DNA of 27,095 bases from a virus: IMG/VR virus record IMGVR_UViG_3300037517_003563, positions 1-27,095 of that record; one strand, written 5' to 3'. Shown here in pieces: positions 2,113 to 27,095 of the stretch. The notes beneath the pieces were generated by a model. It was not told the DNA's origin and did not search any database. It saw nothing but the letters and a program-made list of their open reading frames with translations. Numbering within the stretch: position 1 is the stretch's first letter; every line of letters starts with the position of its first letter. A program made the translations under genes and the position numbers.

Positions 2113-2117
2113 CTTGC

Positions 2118-13328: not shown

Positions 13329-13356
13329 TTGCAAAATTAACAACTGTTGTTAAAAT
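13329..13356 (+). promoter_or_regulatory. Rightward promoter with a palindromic operator in its spacer
   Basis: TTGCAA (13329-13334), a 16-base spacer and TAAAAT (13351-13356) give a plausible promoter for the rightward RHH gene and perhaps terL. Between the boxes lies a perfect 17-bp palindrome, TTAACAAC-T-GTTGTTAA (13337-13353), the typical position for a repressor operator. The ATG at 13362 follows so closely that the transcript would be almost leaderless. Confidence 0.55.
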
Positions 13357-13361
13357 ACCTC

Positions 13362-13538
13362 ATGAGAACTCACAAGCCAGTATCGGTGTCGTTGCCCGAA
13401 GAAATGTTTCGGGAGGCAGAGGCGCGGGCAAAAAGTCTAGGATTTAAAAGGGCGACTTATATCCAGCAACTAATTCTCGCGGATCTCAAAAAGGCCAAGG
13501 GCGATGACGCAGAGGCGAAGAAACGACCCGAGAAATAA
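13362..13538 (+). CDS. Ribbon-helix-helix regulator, rightward partner
   Basis: 58 residues from ATG 13362; an in-frame start at 13347 would lie inside the operator palindrome. The RHH pattern is clear: strand KPVSVSLPEE, helix A MFREAEARAKSLG, helix B KRATYIQQLILADLKKA, then a charged tail. It differs in sequence from the leftward RHH protein, so the two may recognise different sites (tandem TAACGGTT repeats versus the TTAACAAC palindrome). Divergent small repressors flanking a shared control region are typical of lysogeny switches. Which one is repressor and which is antirepressor cannot be read from the sequence. Confidence 0.8.
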   Translation: MRTHKPVSVSLPEEMFREAEARAKSLGFKRATYIQQLILADLKKAKGDDAEAKKRPEK

Positions 13539-13544: not shown

Positions 13545-13569
13545 AAAACCGGGGGTGCGCCCCCTTGCG
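13545..13569 (+). promoter_or_regulatory. Late-gene leader element, copy 1 (before terL)
   Basis: The 25 bases beginning AAAACCGGGGGTGC and ending CTTGCG match 22 of 25 positions of the sequence 54 bases before the portal start (20590-20614). Here the G5 run can also pair with the following C5 run. The element begins 56 bases before ATG 13601. A shared RNA leader, a late-transcription signal or a packaging-protein site are all possible. Confidence 0.5.
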
Positions 13570-13600
13570 GGCACGGTAAACGGGAACGGTGTTGCCGCGT

Positions 13601-15364
13601 ATGCCCGACAGCCCTGATGCTCACCTTCCCGCCAGCTCTGCCCTTGTCCATTTCGAGACAATGGCAAAGATTGAAGACGAGCGGACGAAGGAACTGTTCA
13701 CACCCACGGCAAACACGTTCCAACGGCGGCTTTTCGAGGCATACGAGACTTTGCTGGCGGTCATGCAGGCGGTTGATTTCGATTTCGAGATCCGCATTCT
13801 CGGGCTCAAGATCCGCCAGTGTGGAGGGACGACGGCCTCCAATCACATTATTTATCACCACTCGCAGAGATTCGCCACGGACTCGGTGATTATGACGGAC
13901 GTTAAGCCCTCATCGAAGGAGGTTCTTTTGCGCATGAAGACGCTTTCTAAAGCCGACCTCTACCCGTGGAACAACCCGCTCGATCCACTCTCGGATCAAC
14001 TCGCGTGGGCGAATGGCTCCCGTAGCCAGATCACCTCGGCAGAGACGCCCAACGCGGGCATCGGGCGAACTCGGCAAGCTGCGCTGCTCTCCGAGGTCTG
14101 CAAATACCCAAGAGGCGGCGTTAAGGATGACAAAAGCATCATGGCGGGCATTTTGCCGTCCATTAACCAGCTGGTGATCGCGGAGAGCACCCCTGACGGC
14201 GCGAGTGGATGGTTCTTTGAGCAGTATCACGGCACCAAGGACATGCCGGGGGCTTTGAGCCTGGACGCCTACATCGCGCAGCTGAAACAAGGCAACAGGA
14301 AACCCGGTAACGGCTGGGTGAAAGTGTTCGCGGCGTGGTGGGAGTTTGGCGAAAACGCTCGGCCTGTATCGGCGGGAGATCGCGCCAACATCTCCGAGAA
14401 ACTGACGGCACGGGAGGCCAACGGGATCGCGACCTACGGCTGGACCATCGAGCAAATCGCCTGGAGGCGGGACATGCTGTTCTCGGAGTGCGGCGGGGAT
14501 GAATCGCTTTTTGATTCCTACTATCCTGAAGATGACGTTTCCTGCTTCCTTTCTTCGGGCCGTCCGCGTTTCAATATGGGGGCGATTGTGGCCTTAGAGC
14601 GCAAACTGGTGAACTACACCACGGAGGAGGGCGCTTTGACTCCGCAGCGTGACGGTGTTGTGTTCGTCCCGCAGTATGACAACTATTCACCGATTCAGAT
14701 TTTCGAGCGGCCTCGGCCTGGGTGCAAATATCTCGTTTGGTGCGATCCGGCGACCGGCGAGGACCAGACCGAGGGGAAAGACCCCGACCGGCATTCAATC
14801 GGCGTGTTGCGAGCCGGATACGTCGAGGGCGACACATGGCGGAATCACAAAGTCGTTGCCCGAGTCCGCCCGCCTTGCACCTCGGAGGGAGATGTCATCA
14901 TTGACCACATCGCGAACCTGTCCGCGTTTTACGGTGACTGCTTGGTGGTGCTTGAAATCAACATGGGGCATTACGTTCTCAAGGGCTTGAAAGACAGAGG
15001 CGTTCCGCTGTTCAAACGTGAAATTATCGACCTGCACGACCGCGACGGCCCGCCGAAATTGCAATACGGCTACAAGCTCAAAGACAGGGACCAACGCCGC
15101 GAAATCGTGGTGTGTCTGGCTGCTCACTTGCGCGACGGTGCAATCGACGTTCCTTGTGGGCACATTTTGAAGGAGGCGAAAACCTTTATCATCGACAAAA
15201 ACGGCAAGGAAACCGCCCGCGCTGGGTGCCACGATGATGATATTCTGGGGCTGGGCATGGGCCTTGTGTCCATCGGGGGCGCAACCCTCTACCGAGGCCC
15301 GCAGCGCGTGCGCCGGAAGCCAGTCGATCATCGGCAGTGGAAACGCCATCCCGGCTACAGTTAA
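13601..15364 (+). CDS. terL: Terminase large subunit
   Basis: 587 residues from ATG 13601; GTG 13589 and ATG 13661 are in-frame alternatives. The packaging ATPase has an adapted Walker A (LKIRQCGGTTAS, about 69-80, as in terminases with KxRQ), a Walker B-like AALLSEVCKYP (160-170) and motif III LVIAESTPDG (191-200). The nuclease domain has Asp382 in YLVWCDP, Glu452 in VVLEINMG and Asp545-Asp547 in GCHDDDI, the metal ligands that cut concatemers. The motor docks on the portal and pumps DNA into the prohead. All key residues are present. A shared leader element precedes it. Unusually, the probable small subunit lies 3 kb downstream. Confidence 0.92.
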   Translation: MPDSPDAHLPASSALVHFETMAKIEDERTKELFTPTANTFQRRLFEAYETLLAVMQAVDFDFEIRILGLKIRQCGGTTASNHIIYHHSQRFATDSVIMTDVKPSSKEVLLRMKTLSKADLYPWNNPLDPLSDQLAWANGSRSQITSAETPNAGIGRTRQAALLSEVCKYPRGGVKDDKSIMAGILPSINQLVIAESTPDGASGWFFEQYHGTKDMPGALSLDAYIAQLKQGNRKPGNGWVKVFAAWWEFGENARPVSAGDRANISEKLTAREANGIATYGWTIEQIAWRRDMLFSECGGDESLFDSYYPEDDVSCFLSSGRPRFNMGAIVALERKLVNYTTEEGALTPQRDGVVFVPQYDNYSPIQIFERPRPGCKYLVWCDPATGEDQTEGKDPDRHSIGVLRAGYVEGDTWRNHKVVARVRPPCTSEGDVIIDHIANLSAFYGDCLVVLEINMGHYVLKGLKDRGVPLFKREIIDLHDRDGPPKLQYGYKLKDRDQRREIVVCLAAHLRDGAIDVPCGHILKEAKTFIIDKNGKETARAGCHDDDILGLGMGLVSIGGATLYRGPQRVRRKPVDHRQWKRHPGYS

Positions 15365-15389
15365 GCATGGGACACCATAAGATTTAATA

Positions 15390-16061
15390 ATGGAATTGAC
15401 GGCTGCGGGGTATGTGTCATCAGTGGTAATGCGTAACGTAAACTGTCCAAAGGCAAAAGTCTGGATTCGCTGTGATGCGTTTGGTGGTGATGAGCGAGAA
15501 TTTGAACCAGCTTGGCTTGTATCGGCTAGAGTAATGCGTAACCGTCCCCTCTGCTTCCAGGCATGGATTGAGAAATACGCAGCTTGCTATGACAAGATTC
15601 CGCCCCAGTGCCTTTATTGGTATGAGCCGGAAGAAGATCATCAGGCATTACCTCTCCACAAGGTGCAGATGTGGGAGTGTCTGTCTGGCTCCATTGAGGT
15701 ATGGAGGAAAGATCAGTTGACCGATGTTCCTGTGTTAGTGAATCTGGGCAAGGGGCTGAAGCCGATCAGTGGACACTACTGGTTCACGGTTGATTACCTA
15801 CCTGAAGGCCAGGCCCAAGGGGTCATGGATATTGGTGATTCTGAGTTGCTGGAGGAGCACAAGGAGGGCAACGTCATCCGCCTAGAAAATGGGCAGATTG
15901 CCGTGTACCCAAACAACCGCATTAAATGGTTGCCAGTCTCGTTGACTGGTAAAGATGCCGCATCAGCGATTCCTGATTGGACCGCAGCGTCTAATGCCCA
16001 ATGGGATGAGTGGTGGCAGGACAGTGACGAGATTCTGGGTGACTCCAAATGGGCGTATTAA
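15390..16061 (+). CDS. Hypothetical acidic protein, first gene of the insert after terL
   Basis: 223 residues, acidic and Trp-rich (over ten Trp), with a beta-rich body (VWIRCDAFGGDEREFEPAWL, then QMWECLSGSIEVWRKDQ and IAVYPNNRIKWLPVSL) and an acidic end WDEWWQDSDEILGD. No signal peptide or membrane segment. I recognise no family. Its base composition looks lower in GC than terL and the portal gene, and its codons look different by eye, which suggests a more recent arrival. It begins 25 bases after terL ends, in an A-rich stretch without Shine-Dalgarno, so it may be transcribed with terL or from its own promoter. Confidence 0.7.
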   Translation: MELTAAGYVSSVVMRNVNCPKAKVWIRCDAFGGDEREFEPAWLVSARVMRNRPLCFQAWIEKYAACYDKIPPQCLYWYEPEEDHQALPLHKVQMWECLSGSIEVWRKDQLTDVPVLVNLGKGLKPISGHYWFTVDYLPEGQAQGVMDIGDSELLEEHKEGNVIRLENGQIAVYPNNRIKWLPVSLTGKDAASAIPDWTAASNAQWDEWWQDSDEILGDSKWAY

Positions 16062-16109
16062 CGATGAGATGACGAGCCCCCGACTAACCAAAGAAAGACC
16101 ACCAAAATA

Positions 16110-16373
16110 ATGAGCACTGAATCGAAGCTAGAGACACCCATCGACCACTCCGCTGAGGGGGTCGTCGTCCATCGCCTTGTTCGGCGTTTGCGGCGACTAT
16201 TGGAAGATATGGACGCTGCGGATTGTGAGCTTGTGATGATGGAATCTGGCACTGTCACATCACTACATATCCGTCCGCAGAGTGAACACCACAACGATAC
16301 CGACTTTGGTAAGCGGGCAGCGGACACAAGGGATGACTTTGGCCTCGCCATAGGAGGACACCGCTGCCCGTGA
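16110..16373 (+). CDS. Small hypothetical protein of the terL-terS insert
   Basis: 87 residues. After an acidic start it has VVVHRLVRRLRRLLEDMDAA, an Arg-rich amphipathic helix, then a strand pair (CELVMMESGTVTSLHIRPQ) and a polar end. The helix start (HRLVRR) is shared with the protein at 17256-17612 (NRLVRR), and a 14-base sequence is identical in both genes (16173-16186 and 17307-17320), so the two genes may share a common ancestor segment. Function unknown. Confidence 0.55.
   Translation: MSTESKLETPIDHSAEGVVVHRLVRRLRRLLEDMDAADCELVMMESGTVTSLHIRPQSEHHNDTDFGKRAADTRDDFGLAIGGHRCP
16173..16186. repeat. CTTGTTCG stem-loop, copy 1
   Basis: CGCC-TTGTTC-GGCG forms a short 4-bp hairpin. The same 14 bases occur at 17307-17320, and a third hairpin with the same loop but another stem lies at 16449-16468. 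The sequence is within a coding region, so protein constraint could explain this copy. Confidence 0.35.
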
Positions 16374-16391
16374 CGCCGAACGATTAGTCTC

Positions 16392-16694
16392 ATGGACGCG
16401 CCACCCACATCACCCGATTTCAGCAAGAACGCGCCCGGCGCGTTCCATGCAGACGCTTGTTCGTCTGCGGTTGATGCCGCCTGCAATGTTGCTGACTTCG
16501 TGCGCAACTACGTCAGACAGCGACAACACGCCATCCGCTGCCACTGCGACTCAATCCACGAAAACGCGCCGATCCAAGGCGCGGCTTGGAGGCTGGCGCT
16601 CGCTGAACTCGATCACGTTGCTGAGGCGTGCATCTCCGTATCTCGCCGGACGCTGAGTCAGACGAACGACCGAACTCTGCGACCTGCTGAATGA
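16392..16694 (+). CDS. Small hypothetical protein of the terL-terS insert
   Basis: 100 residues with a disordered Pro/Ser start, a Cys-containing middle (ADACSSAVDAACNVADFVRN) and a helical end AWRLALAELDHVAEACISVS. The frame is favoured because its TGA overlaps the next ATG (ATGA at 16691-16694). A second frame inside it (16447-16656) would encode a protein with a lipobox-like LLTSC, but I see no independent support for that one. No family recognised. Confidence 0.5.
   Translation: MDAPPTSPDFSKNAPGAFHADACSSAVDAACNVADFVRNYVRQRQHAIRCHCDSIHENAPIQGAAWRLALAELDHVAEACISVSRRTLSQTNDRTLRPAE
16449..16468. repeat. CTTGTTCG stem-loop, copy 2
   Basis: GCAGACG-CTTGTT-CGTCTGC is a perfect 7-bp hairpin. 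Its stem differs fully from the other two copies in this block, while the loop core CTTGTTCG is constant. Confidence 0.4.
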
Positions 16695-16912
16695 CCACAA
16701 CGCCAGCCAGTCAGTGCGACTCTCGAACTGCCAGCGAACCGCAGGTTCGCAGCAGTGAGCTTGTTATCCGGCCAGCACGTTTGAAGTATCGGGACGGAGA
16801 AGCGTGGGCTGTCGCCTGGTCGGGTGACTTTGGAAAGACAATAACCGTAACCAGCGAGGAAGTGCGCCTCTGCATTTTGCGAGGACAAATCGCGCAACTG
16901 CTGGCCGGATAA
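16691..16912 (+). CDS. Small hypothetical protein of the terL-terS insert
   Basis: 73 residues. The second half is a beta-rich unit (AWAVAWSGDFGKTITVTSEE) followed by a helix (VRLCILRGQIAQLLAG), which reads as a real fold. The first part is polar and probably disordered. The ATG overlaps the TGA of the gene before it. Function unknown. Confidence 0.55.
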   Translation: MTTTPASQCDSRTASEPQVRSSELVIRPARLKYRDGEAWAVAWSGDFGKTITVTSEEVRLCILRGQIAQLLAG

Positions 16913-16945
16913 AGACAAGGCTCAGGCGACGGCGAGCATACCACA

Positions 16946-17263
16946 ATGAAAACACCAAAGATCAACTTCGAGCCGTTGCCTGCTGCCGCTGGTTCTGTGA
17001 GGGATACTCCACGCACAGACTGGAGAGAAGCACGGTCAGAGGGACTGCACGATGAGTGGTGCTTCTCGCTATGCCGTCAGTTAGAGCGAGAACTGAATAC
17101 CTGCCGAGAAGCACTTGAAGCCGCCGACGAATGCCTCTCGCTCATTGAGGACGTAGGACATGGAGCCATGTCAGACAACGTGACTGTCGCTCGCGGCATA
17201 GTCCTAGCTGCGCTTTCACAGAACGACCAAGGTCACACACAGACGGGAGCGAAAAATGACTAA
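16946..17263 (+). CDS. Small phage protein with TPRTD and coiled-coil pattern
   Basis: 105 residues. The layout TPRTDWREARSEG, then SLCRQLERELNTCREALEAA, matches a widespread type of small phage protein of unknown function that is also seen here at 9540-9794. The second half (ADECLSLIEDVGHGAMSDN, then VARGIVLAALSQ) is helical. Its end overlaps the next gene by eight bases. The presence of a second member on the late strand suggests duplication or separate gain. Confidence 0.6.
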   Translation: MKTPKINFEPLPAAAGSVRDTPRTDWREARSEGLHDEWCFSLCRQLERELNTCREALEAADECLSLIEDVGHGAMSDNVTVARGIVLAALSQNDQGHTQTGAKND

Positions 17264-17612
17264 GACTTCACCCCAGACGTGGCCGCTCCCGGCTGTTGAT
17301 GTGAACCGCCTTGTTCGGCGGTTTTGTCGGATGTTCAAAGCGGATACCGCCCGCCTCTCTGCGCCGCTGAAAAAGACGATTTTCCTCATCATCGGCTTCA
17401 ATCGGAATACCAAAGATGATCCCGGCCAATGGGTCGATCAGGACGGAAAAGTAAAGAACTGGAACTACGTGCAGGAATCGTGCATCGCCAGCGGTGACAC
17501 CGTGGACGAGCTAATCGCCAGCGCAAAGCACTACAAACGACTGCAAGGCATGACATGGGAAGAGTTTTTCAGTCAGCCGAACAAAGCATTATCAAAAAGT
17601 CATGAGAATTAG
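17256..17612 (+). CDS. Hypothetical protein of the terL-terS insert
   Basis: 118 residues. A basic N-terminal helix (VNRLVRRFCRMFKADTARL) similar to that of the gene at 16110 is followed by KKTIFLIIGFNRN, then an aromatic polar stretch (WVDQDGKVKNWNYVQESCIA) and a helix ending EEFFSQPNKA. No catalytic motif recognised. It overlaps its neighbours by eight and eleven bases, so translation is coupled. Confidence 0.55.
   Translation: MTKTSPQTWPLPAVDVNRLVRRFCRMFKADTARLSAPLKKTIFLIIGFNRNTKDDPGQWVDQDGKVKNWNYVQESCIASGDTVDELIASAKHYKRLQGMTWEEFFSQPNKALSKSHEN
17304..17323. repeat. CTTGTTCG stem-loop, copy 3
   Basis: AACCGCC-TTGTTC-GGCGGTT is a perfect 7-bp hairpin with a 6-base loop. It contains the same 14-mer as copy 1 but with a longer stem. 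It is followed by TTG, not a T run, so it is not a terminator. Confidence 0.4.
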
Positions 17613-17949
17613 ACGCAAGGGCCGACCCAAAACCAGTGGCTCTTGGACGCCGGAGAAATCAGCCAAGGCGCACGCAGCCAAAGCTCGCAGGCGGATGGAG
17701 GCACCCCGAGACGATGAGCCGCGCCGAGTGCCCGAGGGCCAGTTCCTGGGAGTCATGCAATGGCACGCGGCGGACGGCACAGTTAGACGGTGGACCGTTA
17801 GGCAGGGGCCGAGGGCAAATAACATCGCTGTGACAGCCAAAGGCAAAACAGCGACTTGTGGCTGGGACTACCTTTTTCGCAAGCTCCGAAAACATCTATC
17901 CATCCCAAAAAGGATCTTTACCCGTGAAGGCGATCCCACTCCAGCATGA
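17602..17949 (+). CDS. Small basic hypothetical protein
   Basis: 115 residues, very basic at the N-terminus (MRIRRKGRPKTSGSWTPEKS, then AKARRRME), which suggests nucleic-acid binding through a disordered arm. A beta-rich middle follows (GQFLGVMQWHAADGTVRRW, then NNIAVTAKG) and a helix FRKLRKHLSI. Its last 32 bases overlap convergently with a leftward gene. No family recognised. Confidence 0.6.
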   Translation: MRIRRKGRPKTSGSWTPEKSAKAHAAKARRRMEAPRDDEPRRVPEGQFLGVMQWHAADGTVRRWTVRQGPRANNIAVTAKGKTATCGWDYLFRKLRKHLSIPKRIFTREGDPTPA

Positions 17950-18109
17950 TCGGCTCCAGCGCGACGTTTTCCCCATCGACTACCCGGCAACCCTTTGCGC
18001 ACTCGATGACATGGCACCCATCAAACAAGATGACGGGCCGTTCCTTGTGGGCTTTGCACTTGGGCGCATTGGCCGCGAAGTGCTTCATCTTCCGCTCAAT
18101 CTCGGTCAT
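17918..18109 (-). CDS. Small Cys/His-containing hypothetical protein, inverted
   Basis: 63 residues from ATG 18109, chosen because it overlaps the stop of the upstream leftward gene (ATGA). The sequence has Cys-Lys-Ala-His, HVIECAKGC and a compact strand pair (RPVILFDGCHVIECAKGC), perhaps a small metal-binding fold. It is one of only two leftward genes in the late arm. Function unknown; the ending overlaps the rightward neighbour. Confidence 0.6.
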   Translation of the reverse strand: MTEIERKMKHFAANAPKCKAHKERPVILFDGCHVIECAKGCRVVDGENVALEPIMLEWDRLHG

Positions 18110-18363
18110 TTCCGCTTCTTTACCCTGGCCGTGTACAAAGCGGCCTGATTGGGTGACACCATGACCAGCACCGGCGATGCTTGGCTGGCCTGCTTGGCGA
18201 ACTCGTAGAGATCGGTGCGCTGGCTCCACCGATGCAGATACGTCCTTCGACTCAGCGGCACCAGCTGCCGGTCCTTGGCCTGCTCCAGGGTAAGCGCATG
18301 GCGAAACCAAGCGGCCACGGTTAAACGGTATGCTCGAACCTCGGGGGTTGTAGTTGCTCCCAT
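18106..18363 (-). CDS. Small basic hypothetical protein, inverted
   Basis: 85 residues. It begins MGATTTPEVRAYRLTVAAWF and has an Arg- and Gln-rich middle (LEQAKDRQLVPLSRRTYLHR) and a basic end YTARVKKRK. The pattern of an N-terminal helix and basic middle might fit a DNA-binding regulator. It diverges from the probable small terminase gene, with a 104-base gap between them. A weak promoter (TTGAGG, 16 bases, TAAGAT on the minus strand) is visible upstream. An inverted pair of small genes in a late operon is typical of an independently expressed accessory (moron) unit. Confidence 0.6.
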   Translation of the reverse strand: MGATTTPEVRAYRLTVAAWFRHALTLEQAKDRQLVPLSRRTYLHRWSQRTDLYEFAKQASQASPVLVMVSPNQAALYTARVKKRK

Positions 18364-18467
18364 GGGATACTATCTTATGCTATCAGATGCCCTCCTCAAG
18401 AACAAAAGGCAAAAGCCCTCCAATTATCAGCGCCACTATACAGCATCCCGAACTAACTGAGGTGGAG

Positions 18468-19049
18468 ATGCAGAGCGGACCCCATCCAAGGTCACATAGA
18501 CGGATACCAAGGCAGATCGAGAACTGGATAGAGAGGTGCAAAGTGCTGGGGCTCCAGACCCGCCAACTGGTATGGGAGCTACATGTTTGCCAAGGTCATA
18601 GCAAGATCGAGACAGCCCGGTTACTCGACATCACAAGGGCCGCTGTGTGGCAGCATTACGAGGCAGCAAAACGAGAGATTTACGACCGTGCGCCCAAGAA
18701 TCCAGAAGAGTTCGCCGCAAAGCGTGAGGAGATCTACGACCGCCTACTCTCCACCTATGAGGAGGCGTGCAAGCGCACGCAGGTAAAAACGATTGACCAA
18801 GAGACAGGGGAGGAAGTGCTACAGGAACTCGACGCGGATCCGCGCAATCTGGCGATCCGGCTCAAGTGCTTAGACCAGATGGCCAAGCTCCACGGGCTCA
18901 ACTTGGAGAGAGAAACAGGCGCAGGGGATGAGGGCAAGGTGTATGCGACACCGGAGGATATCGCCCTGGCAGTGCAGGCCAGGGCGCTGGCTGTGCATGG
19001 CAGGGCAGGGGATGTGCAGGCCGCTGTTAAGGCGCTGACCAATGGGTGA
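18468..19049 (+). CDS. terS: Probable terminase small subunit
   Basis: 193 residues from ATG 18468, behind a GAGGTGG ribosome binding site; a longer in-frame start at 18354 is less likely. Residues about 30-65 form a helix-turn-helix (LVWELHVCQGHSKIETARLL, then DITRAAVWQHYEAA). A helical oligomerisation part follows (RLLSTYEEACKRTQ, DPRNLAIRLKCLDQMAKLHG), a layout usual for TerS, which binds the packaging start site and hands it to TerL. The C-terminal tail (about 150-193) probably contacts TerL. TerS normally lies beside terL, but here it is 3.1 kb away. The call rests on fold pattern and a typical DPRN-LDQMAKLHGL segment. Confidence 0.7.
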   Translation: MQSGPHPRSHRRIPRQIENWIERCKVLGLQTRQLVWELHVCQGHSKIETARLLDITRAAVWQHYEAAKREIYDRAPKNPEEFAAKREEIYDRLLSTYEEACKRTQVKTIDQETGEEVLQELDADPRNLAIRLKCLDQMAKLHGLNLERETGAGDEGKVYATPEDIALAVQARALAVHGRAGDVQAAVKALTNG

Positions 19050-19103
19050 GTGTCGGATTATCTGACACGGAAAAAGAAAATGTAAGATAATATGATATAG
19101 CCG

Positions 19104-19131
19104 TTGACGGCATGTCGTAATATATTACATT
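19104..19131 (+). promoter_or_regulatory. Predicted promoter with palindromic operator, right of terS
   Basis: TTGACG (19104-19109), a 16-base spacer and TACATT (19126-19131) form a fair promoter. The spacer and -10 overlap the perfect palindrome GTAATATATTAC (19117-19128). As at 13337-13353, the palindrome sits between the boxes, so a repressor could control the small genes from 19184 onward. Confidence 0.45.
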
Positions 19132-19183
19132 GGCGCACGCCCAGGTGGGCGAAACCGAAACCCAAACCGAATTAAAAATCAGT

Positions 19184-19492
19184 ATGAACCACATCACAGA
19201 AGCCACTGAAATCTCAGAAATCTACGCCTCCATTCAAGTCGGAGAGATCCCCGATGTTAAGATCGGTGACACGATCAACGGGAAATACCTGATCATCGAC
19301 TCAATCGGTAATTTCACGGAACTCGAAGAGGGTAAAAATTACTTCCTCTTTACTGAGGTGATCCGCAATCACTCGACCCAGCTGTCCTTCGTTGAGCGGT
19401 ATGTCTCGACTGAGCAGCAACCGCTGCGCTCGGACCTCAAGCATTTAGAAGTGATCAGCGTCGAATCAGTCCCTCTTGCCATCGCAGCATAA
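19184..19492 (+). CDS. Small acidic hypothetical protein
   Basis: 102 residues from ATG 19184, preceded by AAAAATCAGT, a start context repeated before two later genes. Strands dominate: EIYASIQVGEI, YLIIDSIGNF, NYFLFTEVIR, TQLSFVERYV and LKHLEVISVES. This looks like a compact beta protein. The composition is acidic. No family recognised. It is the first gene after a probable operator-controlled promoter. Confidence 0.65.
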   Translation: MNHITEATEISEIYASIQVGEIPDVKIGDTINGKYLIIDSIGNFTELEEGKNYFLFTEVIRNHSTQLSFVERYVSTEQQPLRSDLKHLEVISVESVPLAIAA

Positions 19493-19526
19493 CCACAACC
19501 CAGAAACCCAGAACCAAATCAACAGT

Positions 19527-19766
19527 ATGACCACACTCAACGAATACAAGATCCTCAGAAACGAAGCAGGCGAGCGGGCCGTCAAGATCCTCGCGACAGG
19601 GCAAATCATCCCGGCAGACATCGCGGGACTGTGCTGCGGTCCTGATGCGTGGCTCAGTGAGATCGAATGCAAGTGCCGCGACTGCGGCCAAAAGTTCCCG
19701 CTTCGCGAACTGCAAGGGAACGGCCAGTGGTGCGAACCCTGCCAGACCAAGGACATCGAGGACTAA
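19527..19766 (+). CDS. Small zinc-ribbon protein
   Basis: 79 residues from ATG 19527. A helix-rich start (NEYKILRNEAGERAVKILA) is followed by a zinc ribbon: Cys-Lys-Cys-Arg-Asp-Cys (CKCRDCGQKFPL) and WCEPCQ, four or more Cys in two knuckles. Zinc ribbons of this type bind nucleic acid or protein. It shares the start context CAACAGTATG with its neighbours and lies in a run of small genes between terS and portal. Exact role unknown. Confidence 0.7.
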   Translation: MTTLNEYKILRNEAGERAVKILATGQIIPADIAGLCCGPDAWLSEIECKCRDCGQKFPLRELQGNGQWCEPCQTKDIED

Positions 19767-19845
19767 GTTGCCACCCGTCTCCCCTGTGTCGCAGCGCAGG
19801 GGAGCAGGGTGCCATCAGGCCCAATAACCCAGAAATCAAAACAGT

Positions 19846-20055
19846 ATGAAGACCCAAACCATCCAGCAGAAGATCGCCGCCCTCATCAAGTCCGACCCCA
19901 TCGCGCTCATGTTCGTGCATGATGCGCTCATCAAGCAGACCGAGGCGGTGCTCGAAAACGAGGAGGCGACCCTGCTCGCCATGCAGAAGTCATTTGTGGC
20001 TGGCCCAGCGTGGGTCAGAGCCGCAAAGGATGTCAGAGCCGCAATCAATGCCTAA
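19846..20055 (+). CDS. Small helical hypothetical protein
   Basis: 69 residues, almost all helix (IQQKIAALIKSDPIALMF, then ALIKQTEAVLENEEATLLAM), with a Trp-containing end (GPAWVRAAKDVRAAI). No metal site or membrane segment. The start lies in ATCAAAACAGTATGA, the shared leader type of this trio. Function unknown. Confidence 0.65.
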   Translation: MKTQTIQQKIAALIKSDPIALMFVHDALIKQTEAVLENEEATLLAMQKSFVAGPAWVRAAKDVRAAINA

Positions 20056-20063
20056 CGGAAGCC

Positions 20064-20318
20064 ATGATCACACTTCCCACCATCCACAACAACGGCACCG
20101 GGCGGCAAATGCTGACCGAGGGCTACGACAATGCAGCAGACAAGCTCCAAGACTTTATCGAAGCCTGGGGCAAAGTGGAGTTCAACGCCCGCGATTACTA
20201 TGTGCAAGGTCCAGACGCATGGGTTAAGGCATTAGAGGAACGCGAGGCCATGAGCGCCAAGATCCGCGAGGTTCGCGACTACATCACCGAAATCCGCCAG
20301 CACCTCTACGACGCATGA
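20064..20318 (+). CDS. Small helical hypothetical protein
   Basis: 84 residues from ATG 20064, eight bases after the previous stop. Helical segments QMLTEGYDNAADKLQDFIEA and ALEEREAMSAKIREVRDYIT make it look like a small coiled-coil or helical-bundle protein, acidic overall. The TGA overlaps the next ATG. No family recognised. Confidence 0.65.
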   Translation: MITLPTIHNNGTGRQMLTEGYDNAADKLQDFIEAWGKVEFNARDYYVQGPDAWVKALEEREAMSAKIREVRDYITEIRQHLYDA

Positions 20319-20584
20319 CACCCACCCAATACAAAGCCGAGCGCACAAAGCGCGGGCTCTCGCAGGCCCAGCTTGCTGATGCTCTCCAAGTCTCCCGCCA
20401 GTGCATCAACCGGCGGGAGGCAGGGGATGCACGCTACCCGATCACACGGGAGGCCGAGCTTGCCATCTTGGGGTTGCCGACTGGCCTCAAGTTCATCCCC
20501 GTCCCCAAGGCTGACCCTCGGGCATTGGCGGCAGAGCGCGAAGTCCTCGCCCGACTGGCCAACCCACAGCTGAAGCGTAAGTAG
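20315..20584 (+). CDS. XRE-family helix-turn-helix regulator
   Basis: 89 residues. The HTH is textbook: TKRGLSQAQLADALQVSRQC, with recognition helix SRQCINRREAG. A basic Pro-rich C-terminal arm follows (LPTGLKFIPVPKADPRALAA). Small XRE proteins of this type may regulate their own operon or late genes. It is coupled to the gene before it by ATGA and lies just upstream of the portal gene and its shared leader element. Its targets are unknown. Confidence 0.85.
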   Translation: MTPTQYKAERTKRGLSQAQLADALQVSRQCINRREAGDARYPITREAELAILGLPTGLKFIPVPKADPRALAAEREVLARLANPQLKRK

Positions 20585-20589
20585 CCGTC

Positions 20590-20614
20590 AAAACCGGGGG
20601 TGCTCGCTCTTGCG
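20590..20614 (+). promoter_or_regulatory. Late-gene leader element, copy 2 (before portal)
   Basis: The sequence beginning AAAACCGGGGGTGC and ending CTTGCG matches the one before terL at 22 of 25 positions and starts 54 bases before the portal ATG, versus 56 for terL. Downstream, CGGTAACTGCGGG before the portal ATG also resembles CGGTGTTGCCGCG before terL. The equal spacing argues that the leaders are related as units. Confidence 0.55.
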
Positions 20615-20643
20615 TAGGCCGTGGCATCCTCGGTAACTGCGGG

Positions 20644-22764
20644 ATGCTCGTTACCCCGCCCGCTCCATCGAAAGCCGATAGCCTCCCTCTCAAGGCCCGC
20701 ATTGCCAGCAACACGCTACGCCGCAAGTCCAAGCGCAGCCCGCTGGAGGATGCTCTGAGCGCGGAGCAGGGCAAGCGAGCCGTCCAGATCGTCCAGTTCG
20801 CCCGGGAGCAATGGGCTAACTACAAGGCCAGTCTCTCCGCATGGCGCGAAAACCGACGCAAGTATGAGCAAGAGGCTGCCGATGTGTTCAAGCACCGCGA
20901 GTTGCCCGAGTTCGACGAAGAGGGCAAGCCGAGGGTGTTCGTCCTCAAGAATGATTCCCTAAACGTCGTTGGTGCGCTCGCTGAGTTTGCATCAGCGCAG
21001 GCCGAGCAAGATCTTTTCGGCGGGGAGCCATGGTTTGCCGCTGTGCCTGTGGGTCCGAGTGATCCGGCTCTCGCAGATGTCATGCAAAAGCACCTCCAGT
21101 GGCTCCACCGAGATGGACGACTGGTCGCGACCTACTGTCAAGGCGTCACGCGCTCGACCTGTCTCGGGGAATCGTTCACCGCGACGACCTACGAGATCGA
21201 GATGGACTCGTATGAGGCCGAGGTCGATGCGCTCCACCTCAATGGCAAGCCGCTGTTGATCGATGGCGCACTGGTCCGCACGACCGAGGAGGCTGAAGCC
21301 TACGTTGCTGCCGGAAGGCTCACCCTGCCAGCCAACGCCACGCTCGAATGGGGTGTAGCCTACGAGTCCCGCGATGAGATCCGCAGCCAAGGCACGGTCA
21401 CAACGGTGCTGCAATACACCAACGTCGCGTTTCGCGAGGATGCGCCCGAACTGCTCCTCAAGCACACCAACTTCTATCATGAGGTCGAAATGCCAGTGCT
21501 CGAAGCCATGAGGCGCTACAAGCTGAACAAGGCCGATGCACTCAAGCTCGCAGGCATTGCCGAGGTTCGCACGACCGTGAAGGATGAGCATGAAGAGACG
21601 CCCGCCAAGCCGGACAGCCAGCACGACGCACTGGACGAGGTGCAATACATCGGCACCGATGAAGAGCGGCTCCTCAATAGCCGAGTGCGGCTGATTGTGG
21701 GCTACCTGCGCATCGATCCGTTTGGCACAGGCAAATCGTCCGACATCTGCATTGTCATGACGCCAGACGATGGCGACGACCGGCTTTGGTATGCGAATTA
21801 CCTCGCCAACCTCTCCCCAGGTGGGAAGCTGCCCGTGGAGTGCCATCGGTGGGAAGCGGTGCCGGATCGGTTGTATGGTCGCGGGTTTTTTGCCAAGTAC
21901 AGCCACGTTCAGAAGCAGGTTGACGACCTTTGGAACCAGATCGCCTACCGCAACGCCATGCACGCCAATCCGGTGACAGGCTACGACGCCAAGCAACTCC
22001 AGAACGAGGAGGACGAGACAGACGCCAAGCTCGCGCCGGGGATGACCAAGAACCTCAAGCCAAACGCCAAGATCAGCGATGTGTACCAGTTCCTCGCCAT
22101 GCCCGACCTCGACGACAGGTCGATGGAGCTAATGAACATCGGCATCCAGATGGTGCAGCTGCGCAGTGGCATCACCAGCGCCTCGCAGGGGGACATGTCC
22201 AGCGTTCCAGAAAACAACACGGCCACGGGCATCCGCCAGCTGATGTCACGGGCCGCTGTGCTGCTCAAGAAGCCGGTGCGTGGACTCCGCAGATCGTTCT
22301 CCCGTGACTTCGCCTTCAACACGAAGCTGACCTATGCCAACTTCAACCGTGACGAGGCGTTTCAATGGGGTGAGGGCGAGAATACCGAACTTCTGACCCT
22401 CGAAGGCGACAAAGTGAAGAATCTGGATATCGATGTGCGGATGCTGCTCACCCAAGAGCAGAACCAGACCAAGCTGGAGAGCGCCCAAATCGCCATGAGC
22501 GCGATGCAGCAGTATCTTGCGGCACTGGAGCCGGACAAAGCGAGCCTTCGCCCTCTCGTCCTTCAGATCATCAAGGCGCTGGAGTTCGACCAAGCGGATG
22601 AAATCGTGCGCCAACCCGTCCTAAACCTCGAAAGCATGATGCAAATGCTACCCCCCGAGGAGCAAAACCGGGTAATGATGCTCTTGCAGTCTCAGCAAAT
22701 GGCCCAAACATTGCCGCCGTCAGTCAATCCCACACCTCAAACACAAGCCCCTGTTATCCCATGA
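20644..22764 (+). CDS. Portal protein
   Basis: 706 residues, large as in podovirus-type portals. The middle contains the pattern YGRGFFAKYSHVQKQVDDLW, then IAYRNAMHANPV, characteristic of P22-like and other short-tailed phage portals, followed by helical crown regions (IRQLMSRAAVLLKKPVRGLR, then FNTKLTYANFNRDEAFQWG) and a Gln/Met/Pro-rich tail that is probably disordered. The portal ring is the DNA entry and exit channel; TerL docks on it. The ATG follows the shared leader, with no Shine-Dalgarno. The stop overlaps the next ATG (ATGA at 22761-22764). A long leftward frame inside is a shadow. Confidence 0.85.
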   Translation: MLVTPPAPSKADSLPLKARIASNTLRRKSKRSPLEDALSAEQGKRAVQIVQFAREQWANYKASLSAWRENRRKYEQEAADVFKHRELPEFDEEGKPRVFVLKNDSLNVVGALAEFASAQAEQDLFGGEPWFAAVPVGPSDPALADVMQKHLQWLHRDGRLVATYCQGVTRSTCLGESFTATTYEIEMDSYEAEVDALHLNGKPLLIDGALVRTTEEAEAYVAAGRLTLPANATLEWGVAYESRDEIRSQGTVTTVLQYTNVAFREDAPELLLKHTNFYHEVEMPVLEAMRRYKLNKADALKLAGIAEVRTTVKDEHEETPAKPDSQHDALDEVQYIGTDEERLLNSRVRLIVGYLRIDPFGTGKSSDICIVMTPDDGDDRLWYANYLANLSPGGKLPVECHRWEAVPDRLYGRGFFAKYSHVQKQVDDLWNQIAYRNAMHANPVTGYDAKQLQNEEDETDAKLAPGMTKNLKPNAKISDVYQFLAMPDLDDRSMELMNIGIQMVQLRSGITSASQGDMSSVPENNTATGIRQLMSRAAVLLKKPVRGLRRSFSRDFAFNTKLTYANFNRDEAFQWGEGENTELLTLEGDKVKNLDIDVRMLLTQEQNQTKLESAQIAMSAMQQYLAALEPDKASLRPLVLQIIKALEFDQADEIVRQPVLNLESMMQMLPPEEQNRVMMLLQSQQMAQTLPPSVNPTPQTQAPVIP

Positions 22765-23330
22765 AATATTATTCCATCCTACTCGTCATCGCCTCTCTCT
22801 TCACGGCCTCGCTAGCCTCTGCGCAGGTTCAGACTCTGGATCGAGCCTCTCAGAATCTCGTTGCGGGCTCTGATAATCTCAATGTCCCGGCTTTGCCAAG
22901 CCTGTCCGTGTTTTCGCATGGTCTGCTTGACTTGAACAACAAGGTTCTCATTTCAGCATGGGGCGGAAAGTTGACCGCTCCGGCAAGCACCGTCACCACC
23001 GGCGTAACGAGCATCGGCGTTCAGAGTCGCGCAGTCATCACCAGCGCGGCGACCATTGCGCTTGTGCCTACAGCTTGGAACTCGGCTTACTCACTGACTC
23101 CGGCGCACACGGCGACCATCAATCTGACGAAGACCAATTGCGTGATCGGCAGACAGTATCACTTCATCATTACTACCTCGGGGACGACCAGCTACACGCT
23201 GACCTTTGGGACCAACTTCAAGAGCACGGGCACGCTGGCCACAGGGACCACAACCGCAAAGGTCTTCGTCATTACGTTTGTGTACGACGGCACCAATTTA
23301 AACGAGGTAAGTCGGACGGCTGCCATGTAG
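22761..23330 (+). CDS. Virion-like protein with a Sec signal peptide
   Basis: 189 residues. Residues 1-22 form a signal peptide (MKYYSILLVIASLFTASLAS) with a likely signal peptidase I site after ASA before QVQ. The rest is Thr/Ser/Ala rich and beta-rich and ends TFVYDGTNLNEVSRTAAM, an ending frequent in phage fibre or decoration domains (YDGTNWNEVSR). Such domains are normally assembled in the cytoplasm, so export is odd. It is directly coupled to the portal gene by ATGA. It may be a periplasm- or surface-exposed phage protein, or a virion protein with a hydrophobic anchor. Role unknown. Confidence 0.7.
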   Translation: MKYYSILLVIASLFTASLASAQVQTLDRASQNLVAGSDNLNVPALPSLSVFSHGLLDLNNKVLISAWGGKLTAPASTVTTGVTSIGVQSRAVITSAATIALVPTAWNSAYSLTPAHTATINLTKTNCVIGRQYHFIITTSGTTSYTLTFGTNFKSTGTLATGTTTAKVFVITFVYDGTNLNEVSRTAAM

Positions 23331-23364
23331 GCGCCAAAGCGCGAAACCTTAATCCCTCCTCGCC

Positions 23365-23694
23365 ATGCCTTCTTCCAAGCCAGCCAAACCGACGTTTCAA
23401 AAGCTCGATGCGATGCGCCGAGATGAGGGTGATATTGAGCGGCTGATTGCCGCAGTGGGGCGGGCCATTGTGCCATCGTCCGATTTTCGGGCCGTGACGC
23501 CGAGCGATACCGCACCAATCGCAAAAGGGCCAGCTAAGGCGTTGTTTGTCGGGGGCGCAGGCAATGTGGTTGCGATCAATGAGTTTGGCGTCGCCATCAC
23601 GTTCACAGGAGTTCTCGCGGGTTCGATTTTGCCGATCCAGACAATCCGTGTCCACGCCACCGGCACCACTGCTACCAACATCGTCGCCCTGTAA
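23365..23694 (+). CDS. Small virion-type protein (structural family)
   Basis: 109 residues. An initial basic helical stretch (FQKLDAMRRDEGDIERLIAA) is followed by the pattern RAVTPSDTAPI, KALFVGGAGNVVAINEFG, then ITFTGVLAGSILPIQTIRV and ending TTATNIVAL. This pattern is widely seen in small phage structural proteins, often near head or tail genes and probably decoration or head-fibre proteins. It sits in a run of small beta-rich genes after the portal. Confidence 0.75.
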   Translation: MPSSKPAKPTFQKLDAMRRDEGDIERLIAAVGRAIVPSSDFRAVTPSDTAPIAKGPAKALFVGGAGNVVAINEFGVAITFTGVLAGSILPIQTIRVHATGTTATNIVAL

Positions 23695-23700
23695 CGACTC

Positions 23701-23841
23701 ATGCCCGCCCTCGGACTCGCATTCGGATTGGCCTTCCCTCGACCGAGTGGGAGTGCTGCTGCGTCTGGGGGCGGACCTTTTACGGCTGGTTTTTGGGACG
23801 ACACAACAACTTGGGACGACACAACAACTTGGAACGATTAA
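23701..23841 (+). CDS. 46-residue mini-protein with WDDTTT repeats
   Basis: A short gene from ATG 23701, six bases after the previous stop, ending three bases before the next ATG. Translation gives an Ala/Gly/Pro-rich start (MPALGLAFGLAFPRPSG), a Gly run and an end made of two copies of WDDTTT plus WND. The repeated unit is an 18-base tandem duplication (23793-23828). Gene spacing and frame argue it is translated. Similar mini-proteins in phage structural operons have no set function; the repeated Trp-Asp motif may be an adhesive or docking tail. Confidence 0.6.
   Translation: MPALGLAFGLAFPRPSGSAAASGGGPFTAGFWDDTTTWDDTTTWND
23793..23836. repeat. 18-base tandem repeat encoding WDDTTT
   Basis: Two identical 18-base units of the form TTGGGACGACACAACAAC (23793-23810 and 23811-23828) are followed by a partial, altered copy TTGGAACG. 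The in-frame unit length of 18 lets copy number vary without a frameshift. Confidence 0.75.
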
Positions 23842-23844
23842 TTT

Positions 23845-24639
23845 ATGCCACTCTCGACTATCAACAATGGCGCATCTTCGGCTACGGCACGGGCTGCGAT
23901 CAACGCGGCAATCAATGAAATCAACAATAGGACTCCATTGGTGCGAGGCAGTGGAGTGCTTCAAGGCTACACGGTCCCGGCAACCAGCGCCACCTCTCCT
24001 CCTGCATTGCAATATTCGTTCAGTTATGGCGCTCCCGTAAACGGATATATCGCATTCATTCTCGACGGTACGACAGTTACCATTTATGTGGAAGACAGTG
24101 ATCCTTCCGCAGCGTATTGGGTGGACACTAGTGCCGCTAGCACCGCAGCCGAAATCGCTACTTTGTTTAGCAATTACATTAACGCCAACTTTTCGGTAAC
24201 TGCGGCGGTCGATGTCGACGTTGTTACCATTACCAACGCAAACACGGGTTCTGGGGCAATCTTAACTCACTCCGCAAACACCACGAACACAATGACGTAC
24301 TTCGGCGGAGGAGGCACGGGGACCAATGCCGTATCAGGCTCGGGCAGCGTTGAAGAGGTGACGCTGATTGCGCAGAGCGGCACCAAAACCATCAAGCCTG
24401 TAAAAATCATCGCGCTAGGAGGAGGAGTTAATGTTGCGGTAGAAATCGCGCTAAAAGTAGGATCGACTTACTACCCTGTTGTAACCAACCTTGCCTCTGG
24501 ATACGGTATAGGCGAACCCTTACCAACTCATGCTGAATGGGTATCAGGTCGCGCATCTGCTGCTTTGGTAGCACGGATGGTCGGAACGGTGCCGAATGGA
24601 GGCTCTCAACGAATCCTCGCCATCGTTGAACAGATATGA
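23845..24639 (+). CDS. Beta-rich virion-like protein (fibre or decoration)
   Basis: 264 residues. The N-terminus PLSTINNGASSATARAAINA, then INEINNRTPLVRG, resembles the short helical attachment segment common in phage tail-fibre and decoration proteins. The rest is rich in Gly, Thr, Ser and Ala with repeated beta strands (TVTIYVEDSDPSAAYWV, TAAVDVDVVTITNANTG, VEIALKVGSTYYPVVTNL), typical of trimeric or Ig-like virion proteins. No signal peptide. The TGA overlaps the next ATG. It could bind the host surface, but that is only inferred from the type. Confidence 0.7.
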   Translation: MPLSTINNGASSATARAAINAAINEINNRTPLVRGSGVLQGYTVPATSATSPPALQYSFSYGAPVNGYIAFILDGTTVTIYVEDSDPSAAYWVDTSAASTAAEIATLFSNYINANFSVTAAVDVDVVTITNANTGSGAILTHSANTTNTMTYFGGGGTGTNAVSGSGSVEEVTLIAQSGTKTIKPVKIIALGGGVNVAVEIALKVGSTYYPVVTNLASGYGIGEPLPTHAEWVSGRASAALVARMVGTVPNGGSQRILAIVEQI

Positions 24640-24812
24640 AAACGCTGTTGAGAATCCAGTTTGGTTTGCTGGTGCTTGTGCTGGTGCTCGCGGGTGCGCT
24701 CACCTCATGCAGTCTGCTCATTGGTCTGCGCCAGACCAACCCCAACGGCCATGTTCCAAACATCGTCGAAAAATGGTGGATGGAACAACAAGCTGACAAC
24801 AACTCACGCTGA
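24636..24812 (+). CDS. Small lipoprotein (candidate outer-membrane spanin subunit)
   Basis: 58 residues from ATG 24636 (ATGA overlap with the previous stop). A signal sequence (KTLLRIQFGLLVLVLVLAGA) ends in a lipobox LTSC, so Cys25 would be lipid-modified. The mature part is about 33 residues, polar, ending VEKWWMEQQADNNSR. Small lipoproteins next to lysis genes of Gram-negative phages are often the outer-membrane partner (Rz1-like) of an inner-membrane spanin; the membrane protein at 25222-25629 could be its mate. Direct similarity to Rz1 is not visible, so a lipoprotein with another envelope role is also possible. Confidence 0.65.
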   Translation: MKTLLRIQFGLLVLVLVLAGALTSCSLLIGLRQTNPNGHVPNIVEKWWMEQQADNNSR

Positions 24813-24818
24813 AACACT

Positions 24819-25121
24819 ATGGGTAAACCTCTCGACTCAATCCTTGCTGCTCCTCCGCTGACCAAGTTGCCGGGGATTCCTCGCGCACCTCAAGGTGGGC
24901 AAGATGCTATTGCCGAAGTCGCTGCGCTCGCTCGCCAGCAAGCCGCTGATTTGCCTGCTTCGGCTTCGCCGTTTGAGGTGGTGCAGGAAACTCCCAGAGG
25001 GTTTTCATTTTCGTTTTCACTGAACCCTACTGAGCGCACATTCGACTTTTCTTCGCCTCACGCACTTCGCACCCAGATCGAAAGCGTTGAGGGGCAAATC
25101 AAAGGCACGATCCACTTTTAG
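24819..25121 (+). CDS. Hypothetical protein between lipoprotein and membrane genes
   Basis: 100 residues. Start MGKPLDSILAAPPLTKLPGI, a helix (AIAEVAALARQQAADL), then two strands (GFSFSFSLNPTERTFDFSS) and an end ALRTQIESVEGQIKGTIHF. The spacing from the lipoprotein gene is six bases, and the gene ends before a tiny membrane protein. No family recognised and no membrane segment. Its place in the lysis cluster is the only hint of function. Confidence 0.65.
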   Translation: MGKPLDSILAAPPLTKLPGIPRAPQGGQDAIAEVAALARQQAADLPASASPFEVVQETPRGFSFSFSLNPTERTFDFSSPHALRTQIESVEGQIKGTIHF

Positions 25122-25123
25122 CC

Positions 25124-25225
25124 ATGAATGTGCTTCTCCATTTTGCGCTGGTCATAGCCGTTGGGCTGTTTTTTTCAGTGGCATTGAATTGGATGGCCAA
25201 AACCTCTCAAAAACTACCCAAATGA
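25124..25225 (+). CDS. 33-residue single-pass membrane protein
   Basis: From ATG 25124, two bases after the previous stop, the frame encodes a mini-protein with one transmembrane segment (LHFALVIAVGLFFSVALNW) and a short basic tail (MAKTSQKLPK). Its TGA overlaps the ATG at 25222. Tight packing with both neighbours argues it is real. Tiny one-pass proteins in lysis cassettes can be pinholins or antiholins; this assignment is inferred only. Confidence 0.6.
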   Translation: MNVLLHFALVIAVGLFFSVALNWMAKTSQKLPK

Positions 25226-25629
25226 TGACGACCCCTCACGCCATTGACACCATCACCGGCTCAATCTCTGCACTGATCGTTGGAGCGCCCGCCATCATCC
25301 ACGCCGTCATTGCAGAGATCGGCATCCCTACGCCCGAGTGGGTCGGCTCACTGACTCAAGTCAGCGCGTTCGGGCTTGTCGCATGGATTGTGTTCTTCAT
25401 GTTCACGAAATGGCTACCCAGCCTCCAGGCAGCGGCAGCGGAACAACTGAAAGAGCAGCGGGAAGCCCACACCGTCGCCTTGCAGGCCATTGCGGATGCT
25501 CACCGACAAGCGGTGACGGTCTTAACCGCTCAGTTTGGCGACAGTCTCCAAACGCAACGCCGCGACCTACTCAATATCGTTGAGGCCCGCAATGAAACCG
25601 ACAGCCTGAAAAGCGCCCCATCCCGATGA
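25222..25629 (+). CDS. Holin or spanin-like membrane protein with coiled coil
   Basis: 135 residues from ATG 25222 (overlap with the tiny membrane gene). A first hydrophobic stretch (SISALIVGAPAIIHAVIAEI) and a second, clearer transmembrane segment (VSAFGLVAWIVFFMFTKWL, about 48-67) precede a long helical, charged region (LQAAAAEQLKEQREAHTVAL, then AQFGDSLQTQRRDLLNIV). Two transmembrane segments plus coiled coil fit either a holin or an inner-membrane spanin. The TGA overlaps the next ATG. It is part of the run leading to the endolysin. Confidence 0.65.
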   Translation: MMTTPHAIDTITGSISALIVGAPAIIHAVIAEIGIPTPEWVGSLTQVSAFGLVAWIVFFMFTKWLPSLQAAAAEQLKEQREAHTVALQAIADAHRQAVTVLTAQFGDSLQTQRRDLLNIVEARNETDSLKSAPSR

Positions 25630-26000
25630 GCCGAGACGCACGCACCATCACCGAAACACGCGAGGCAGTCACGGCGCTGGTCCTCGCGTTCGACGCATGG
25701 GTGCGAATCAATGCAGACGGCAAGCGCACGGTCATGGAGTTAGTCACCCTGTTCTCGCTGGTGCCACCCGCGTGGGAAGCGTTGCAAAACGCTGACCAGA
25801 TCATGGCCGAGGTTAAAGACTTGGATGGGCTCGAAGCCGACGAGTTGATTGCCGCCGTCGCGACCAAGCTCAACCTGCATATTTCAACCCATGAGATGCG
25901 CCTCAAGATCGACAAGATTCTGATCGCCGCTCATGCCATAGCCGACGCCACCGCTCAATGGTTCGGCATCAATCCACCCCGAGCCGAAATAGTCCCATGA
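25626..26000 (+). CDS. Phage lysis-cluster hypothetical protein
   Basis: 124 residues, helical and acidic. The pattern INADGKRTVMELVTLFSLVP, then QIMAEVKDLDGLEADELIAA, recalls a small phage protein type often seen near holin and endolysin genes, of unknown function. There is no clear transmembrane segment. Overlapping ATGA junctions at both ends show coupling to the neighbouring genes. It could be a regulator or partner of the holin; this is not proven. Confidence 0.65.
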   Translation: MSRDARTITETREAVTALVLAFDAWVRINADGKRTVMELVTLFSLVPPAWEALQNADQIMAEVKDLDGLEADELIAAVATKLNLHISTHEMRLKIDKILIAAHAIADATAQWFGINPPRAEIVP

Positions 26001-26281
26001 ACCGATTCTTCTCACCCGTCCAAGCCTTCATCCAAGCGTCATTCCTCGCCCTAACCAAAGTCGATGGCAAACCCGGCCTGAGCGTCGATGACTTCAACGT
26101 CATCCTGACATGGGTGCGGACTGCATCCCGTGAGTTCACCGAGTCCAAATCAGGCCAGCAACGGGCCGAGTATGTGCGCGAGATGATCTTGCGCGTCTTT
26201 GGCACACGCGTTCCGAGTTGGACCGCTGACATCCTTGTTTATCTGGCCTACACGTTTGCCAAACGAAAGGGGTGGATTTGA
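25997..26281 (+). CDS. Small lysis-cluster protein, holin-like placement
   Basis: 94 residues from ATG 25997 (ATGA overlap). It begins MNRFFSPVQAFIQASFLALT and contains LSVDDFNVILTWVRTASREF, then VREMILRVFGTRVP and an end ADILVYLAYTFAKRKGWI that is hydrophobic with a basic tail. The hydrophobic parts are moderately amphipathic and could lie on or cross the membrane. Place just before the endolysin suits a holin-type role, but there is no clear transmembrane consensus. The endolysin GTG overlaps its end. Confidence 0.6.
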   Translation: MNRFFSPVQAFIQASFLALTKVDGKPGLSVDDFNVILTWVRTASREFTESKSGQQRAEYVREMILRVFGTRVPSWTADILVYLAYTFAKRKGWI

Positions 26282-26853
26282 ACACCAACGAGATCAAAGC
26301 GATGCAGGAGCGCATCGGGGTCACGGCTGATGGCTTTTGGGGTCCGCTCTCCATTGCGGCGTGCAAGCGGCATCTCCGCGCTTTGATGCCATCACCTAAC
26401 CCATGGCCAAAGCCTGACCGGGCCAGCGTGGAAGCGTTCTTTGGTCGTCCTGGCGATGAGAGTAATCTGGTGCCGTTTGAGTTCCCCTATCCAACCTACT
26501 ACGGCGGGAAGCAGGTAACGCGGGGAAGGTGCCACAAGAAAGTCAAAGACTCGCTCTTGCGGATCTTGCGTGACATCGGAGATCGCTACGGCCACGCCAA
26601 AGCCATCATGGAAGAAGCCGAGGACTACGGCGGAATTTTCAACTTCAGACAGAAGCGCGGGGGTGGCAGCTTGTCCCTTCATTCGTGGGGAATCGCTATC
26701 GACTTGGACGCCGATGACAACATGTTCCGTGATCACTGGCCGATGCGAGCCGACATGCCGTTGGAGATCATGGAGTGTTTTGCCCGCGAGGGCTGGCTCT
26801 CGGCTGGCGCTTTCTGGGGCTACGATGCCATGCATCACCAGAGCACGCAGTAG
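26272..26853 (+). CDS. Endolysin: peptidoglycan-binding domain plus M15 peptidase
   Basis: 193 residues from GTG 26272, just after an AAAGG ribosome binding site within the previous gene. Residues 1-40 are a peptidoglycan-binding fold (IKAMQERIGVTADGFWGPLS, as in PG_binding_1). Residues about 85-193 are an M15-type D-Ala-D-Ala/L-Ala-D-Glu peptidase: SLSLHSWGIAIDLDADDN contains the zinc His and Asp (H-x-x-G-x-A-x-D), and WGYDAMHHQ gives the last zinc His, where family members usually have MHFQ or MHYQ. The enzyme cuts peptide bridges in the cell wall to release virions. No signal peptide, so it depends on a holin. Confidence 0.9.
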   Translation: MDLNTNEIKAMQERIGVTADGFWGPLSIAACKRHLRALMPSPNPWPKPDRASVEAFFGRPGDESNLVPFEFPYPTYYGGKQVTRGRCHKKVKDSLLRILRDIGDRYGHAKAIMEEAEDYGGIFNFRQKRGGGSLSLHSWGIAIDLDADDNMFRDHWPMRADMPLEIMECFAREGWLSAGAFWGYDAMHHQSTQ

Positions 26854-26991
26854 GCTGGAAGGTTGCCCGCGCCAAGGATTCCAAGCAGGCGGGCGGCTAC
26901 TCAATCAGGGGATGTCATGAGGCACCCTCGGTTTTGACTCTCTTGGCTTATCAAGAGGGCATACTATGCCATCGCATACGCGAGACAACCG

Positions 26992-27003
26992 AAAACCGGG
27001 GGT
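26992..27003 (+). promoter_or_regulatory. Late-gene leader element, copy 3 (right edge)
   Basis: AAAACCGGGGGT is identical to the start of the elements at 13545 and 20590; beyond these 12 bases the similarity is lost. Here CCGGG (26996-27000) can pair with CCCGG (27017-27021). It lies 77 bases before an ATG whose frame is open to the window edge. Confidence 0.45.
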
Positions 27004-27068
27004 CTAAGTGGCAAAACCCGGCTTGACCGCTATTGCGACGCCAAAGCAAGCCTGAACCGTGCGGGTCT

Positions 27069-27095
27069 ATGATTGATACCTCCCCTACTGACGGC
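27069..27095 (+). CDS. Possible start of a further late gene, cut by the window edge
   Basis: From ATG 27069 nine codons (MIDTSPTDG) run to the edge without a stop. The frame is also open from TTG 27033. A copy of the late leader element lies upstream, as it does before terL and portal, which makes a real gene likely here, but nine codons do not allow a family call. It could be one of the missing head or tail genes. Confidence 0.3.

Follow-up and report, generated by a model that had tools for sequence, protein, structure and literature searches.

In the P2-type phage phiRSY1, Ogr sites are centered 50 to 90 nt upstream of the start codon, occur without a sigma-70 promoter, and have the form of a dyad, TGTTGT-X13-ACAACA (PMC5694545). 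The SAS of Cluster K mycobacteriophages lie 3–7 bp before the start, contain AGGAG, and precede nonstructural genes; the ESAS of these phages are thought to bind DNA-binding proteins (PMC3203893). The stoperators of Cluster A mycobacteriophages are 13-bp asymmetric sites whose orientation is tied to transcription and that number more than 20 per genome (PMC9283540). Here, we analyzed a short element that precedes head and packaging genes in an entire virus record of 27,095 bases (the window).

The exact 12-mer AAAACCGGGGGT occurs three times in the window, each time on the plus strand (at 13545, 20590, and 26992), with 0 copies expected from 100 dinucleotide shuffles. The copies at 13545 and 20590 (family D16) agree in 22 of 25 bases; their starts lie 56 nt before the terL ATG (13601) and 54 nt before the portal ATG (20644), respectively. 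The third copy lies 77 nt upstream of an ATG at 27069. These counts and distances agree with those given by an earlier, sequence-only reading of the same DNA.

We then compared the window with its relatives. The window and the contig IMGVR_UViG_3300034112_002103 (L004/L006) have the same sequence over 19758–26633; the contig reaches ∼7.4 kb beyond the window end, but the two abruptly diverge from 26634 to the window end (26634–27095), with the break inside the endolysin gene. The divergence point has the look of a junction left when related phages recently recombined. Toward the distal end of this contig, an ORF on the reverse strand (L006 ∼964–1278) carries a long His-Pro repeat (HPHPHP...). 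Beyond L004/L006, the viral collection held two relatives, L005 (portal 71%) and L007 (terL 84%); the related contigs are thus few, L005 and L007 are incomplete, and two of the contigs are short. No relatives of terL or portal were found in genome contigs, and the portal and capsid proteins of the window’s lineage had no match in the phage collection. The sequence-only reading had called the element unique to this phage and had made its regulatory role depend on the element’s presence before terL and portal in related phages. It is present before both, as AAAAGCCGGGTTGCTCGTGGTTGC 54 nt before the portal ATG in L005 and as AAAAGCGGGGGTGTGATGGGTTGA 58 nt before the terL ATG in L007, and is common to a small lineage rather than unique.

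Alignment of six leaders (those of terL, portal, and ORF 27069 in the window, of the same ORF in L004, of portal in L005, and of terL in L007) showed that the 12-mer is part of block A in a longer, 24-nt motif of two blocks, RAAASCSGGNKTGM-N6-TTGM, a consensus that not every position follows strictly (the first M is T in L007). The motif starts 54–58 nt before the ATG in all six leaders and is always in the sense orientation. Different leaders agree with one another at 10–14 of 14 positions in block A and at 3–4 of 4 in TTGM. Outside the blocks, agreement is near random (upstream 15–21 of 60, N6 0–4 of 6, downstream of TTGM 4–16 of 30), so the CGGT and TGC bases that had been described as shared further on are not a general feature. 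Leaders of terL, portal, and the capsid block have no common sequence beyond the motif; the third-leader copies of the window and L004 are close homologs, and their agreement extends more widely. At least five of the six leaders agree in 15 of the 24 columns, compared with 9 for the best of 1,000 Markov nulls (position-restrained null), although these conservation counts are inflated by common ancestry, the six leaders being three homologous pairs. When both strands of the window, of its extension on L006, and of L005 and L007 were searched with a two-block regular expression, exactly these six places matched (0.0 expected in Markov sequences); as the expression was written after the sites had been seen, this shows specificity and is not an independent test. 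The second half of the motif (positions 11–24) is a direct repeat, KTGM-N6-TTGM, with a 10-bp period, a spacing that suggests protein contacts in two consecutive major grooves. The 24-mer is not dyad-symmetric (best self-complementarity 26–60%).

In the third leader, the in-register element is a degenerate copy, AAAACCCGGCTTGA at 27013, 56 nt before the ATG, and the TTGC that follows it has the same offset as in the other leaders. The exact 12-mer at 26992 adds a further block A, 21 bp upstream of the in-register copy, so that block A occurs twice in the capsid-block leader, at a distance of two helical turns. This additional copy is preserved at 12 of 12 bases in L004, with flanking bases that differ at many positions. 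A near-copy on the minus strand, AAAACCGAGGGTGC (26922–26935), lies in the opposite orientation 56 nt ahead of the third copy and is not preserved in L004.

A search of IMG/VR with a relaxed two-block pattern returned 31 stretches, among which only L006 and L007 (again as L014) came from this group. The remaining matches were single, lacking a second copy, and did not convincingly show the motif in use beyond the lineage. One of the stretches, L029, repeats this layout 58 nt upstream of a start, but the gene is unrelated, and it was set aside as probable chance.

The genes behind the leaders, together with the motif copies and the candidate regulators, are listed in the table. The terL start codon is common to the window and L007. 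The start at 27069 opens, on L004/L006, an ORF without a family match that directly precedes the gene of the major head protein (phrog_334, E = 7e-15); this ORF is scaffold-like by position alone. Because it adjoins the major head gene on L004, the three leaders open three head and packaging blocks.

Features of the window, with strand and supporting evidence
Feature	Coordinates	Strand	Evidence or remark
terL, terminase large subunit	13601..15364	+	phrog_24361, E = 1.8e-4; tblastn to annotated terminases, E down to 5e-17
Portal protein gene	20644..22764	+	PF23899 SU10_portal, E = 9e-16; phrog_1216
ORF start	27069..27095	+	Cut by the window end; 365 aa on L004, directly before the major capsid gene
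Bipartite motif copy 1	13545..13568	+	AAAACCGGGGGTGC-GCCCCC-TTGC, 56 nt before terL ATG
Bipartite motif copy 2	20590..20613	+	AAAACCGGGGGTGC-TCGCTC-TTGC, 54 nt before portal ATG
Exact 12-mer, extra, block A only	26992..27003	+	21 bp ahead of the in-register copy
Bipartite motif copy 3, degenerate	27013..27036	+	AAAACCCGGCTTGA-CCGCTA-TTGC, 56 nt before ATG
HTH_3 protein, candidate regulator	20315..20584	+	PF01381, E = 2e-7; directly before portal leader
Small protein, candidate regulator	13347..13538	+	Directly before terL leader; weak CopG/Arc-like repressor match, phrog_4738, E = 0.0018
HTH protein, possible TerS or late regulator	18354..19049	+	Weak sigma-70 region 4 match, below cut-off
Small protein, candidate regulator	1876..2130	-	Conserved in L005 (63%); weak RHH match, below cut-off
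Small protein, candidate regulator by conservation alone	8210..8560	-	Conserved in L007 (47%); no family match

Gene order differs among these phages. In L005, portal adjoins the integrase gene and is divergent from it (L005 1342–2845), whereas in the window (296–1456 and 20644) portal lies ∼5 kb after the terL block; modules have changed places, and the leader has kept to its gene. The L005 portal frame has an in-frame TAG at codon 18 (2845–2898), which could reflect misassembly or a mutation, or could indicate that the gene starts further on.

We next considered how transcription might begin at these leaders. The terL leader of L007 lies within a gap of ∼97 nt to a divergent ORF, which, together with the divergent portal and integrase of L005, leads us to expect a transcription start near the motif. 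No sigma-70 promoter (−35 and −10 hexamers 16–18 nt apart) was present at the leaders, and the best −10 hexamer in any leader matched at three of six positions. A sigma-54 promoter was rejected, since the motif does not have the GG-N10-GC spacing in any of the six leaders; two unrelated GG-N10-GC matches (C1 and L5) lie downstream of the motif.

We assign a probability of roughly 55% to the view that the motif serves scattered late operons as a directional DNA site for their activator. A late-transcription signal, one of several functions that the sequence-only reading had offered, is the best supported of these, and we infer protein binding, activation, and late timing alike. This reading draws on the three exact 12-mers with 0 expected, the specificity for six leaders, the conservation of columns, and the unconserved pairings described below. 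The motif would act in cis, as a directional site starting 54–58 nt before the start codon of the first gene in each of three head-gene blocks. A phage-encoded (or host) activator would bind it in one orientation and recruit the host RNA polymerase to late promoters without the usual sigma-70 sequence, and the blocks headed by terL, portal, and the ORF preceding the capsid gene would be switched on together, late in infection. Points that count against an activator site are the poor −10 hexamers, the weak candidates for an activator, and the common ancestry behind the conservation counts. A further one is that the constant distance runs to the ATG, not to a mapped transcript start, and a translational role suits such a distance equally well.

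The candidates for such an activator are weak, or their presence across all contigs is not established. No match to an Ogr/Delta zinc-finger activator turned up among the proteins scanned, which were part of the ORFs of an incomplete genome. The small protein before the terL leader (13347..13538) also gave a CopG_antitoxin match below the cut-off. A perfect palindrome, TTAACAACTGTTGTTAA (window ∼13336–13355), overlaps the start region of this CopG-like ORF and is possibly the operator of the ORF itself.

An unlikely alternative places the element in RNA: the transcribed motif would be read by a protein or the ribosome and would coordinate translation of the head genes. The fixed 54–58 nt to the ATG and the invariable sense orientation are in keeping with this, as are start-proximal bases kept within gene pairs (for example, GGTAACTG before portal and TGCCG before terL). 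Several leaders also lack a strong Shine–Dalgarno sequence, but so do many other genes here. Energies of the six leaders compared with shuffles had z scores of 0.47, −0.31, 0.03, −1.52, −1.70, and 0.99, so that none was much more stable, and RNAalifold found no pair in the six-leader alignment; a weak six-pair consensus on four leaders vanished when all six were used. On inspection, the GGGGG-TGCG-CCCCC hairpin of the window terL leader was absent from L007, and the long stem that the portal leader forms in the window was broken in L005. Rfam covariance models gave 0 matches up to E = 1, and no conserved, covarying base pairs were found in the leaders (six sequences). The structured 5′ leader proposed earlier is thus not supported, as no leader folds much better than its shuffles and the pairing partners of the element are not conserved. 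With the primary sequence constant and the pairing inconstant, a DNA-binding site fits better than a structured RNA. An RNA leader is therefore disfavored by these alignments and folds, though a single-stranded RNA recognition sequence is possible.

The motif might instead be a repressor site of the stoperator kind, lying in short gaps, through which the repressor of a prophage would block late genes during lysogeny. The phage has an integrase, and the motif is asymmetric, has a size of 12–13 bp, and keeps a single orientation relative to transcription, traits of asymmetry, size, and orientation that stoperators share (PMC9283540). However, in the available genome it occurs at just three leaders, all of head or packaging genes and at a fixed distance from the ATG, while L5-type systems have more than 20 sites per genome, and no site was found at the early region; we regard this explanation as quite improbable. 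We judge in much the same way the idea that the motif is itself a core promoter for a polymerase-recruiting factor of this lineage, replacing both the −35 and the −10 and leaving a very short transcript leader.

It is very improbable that the motif is a recombination linker through which phages swap head-gene modules. The variable gene order and a sharp change of identity ∼360 bp before the third copy speak for a linker, but that change falls inside the endolysin gene and not at the motif, and recombination does not need bipartite conservation, a variable N6, or a fixed distance to the ATG. Packaging normally starts at a single site near terS. A TerS site was also among the earlier suggestions; as a packaging-initiation (pac/cos) site it would suit the copy immediately before terL, but it is almost certainly the wrong explanation for an element that recurs at a constant distance from the start codons of three separate genes. 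The scar of a mobile leader, also suggested earlier, is unlikely because the motif alone, and not its flanks, is common to the leaders.

The activator-site reading offers a defined and testable candidate for late-gene control in a temperate phage lineage, whose late regulon could then be read from sequence. It predicts that head genes dispersed among other genes stay co-controlled by carrying the same site.

Among known systems, the lambda CII site, TTGC-N6-TTGC, resembles the second half of the motif: positions 11–24 match it at 7, 7, 7, 7, 8, and 5 of 8 bases in constant register. By inspection, however, the leaders have no −10-like hexamer ∼17 bp after the N6, where CII promoters have their −10, and the motif has an additional AAAASCSGG block and stands before head rather than lysogeny genes. 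The resemblance to CII sites is one of layout, not of membership. Sigma-54 (−24/−12) promoters likewise have a compact two-block layout with a TTGC end, but their GG-N10-GC spacing is absent here. Like SAS and ESAS, the motif is a short asymmetric repeat linked to gene starts in one orientation; unlike them, it stands 54–58 nt before head and packaging genes. It differs from stoperators in its restriction, within the available genome, to three leaders, all of head or packaging genes. The motif is asymmetric, whereas the Ogr site is a dyad, and lacking that dyad it is not filed under P2 Ogr sites. P2 Ogr is nevertheless the nearest parallel, with an activator site before each of several separate late operons, as we propose for this phage, where lateness is judged from the genes.
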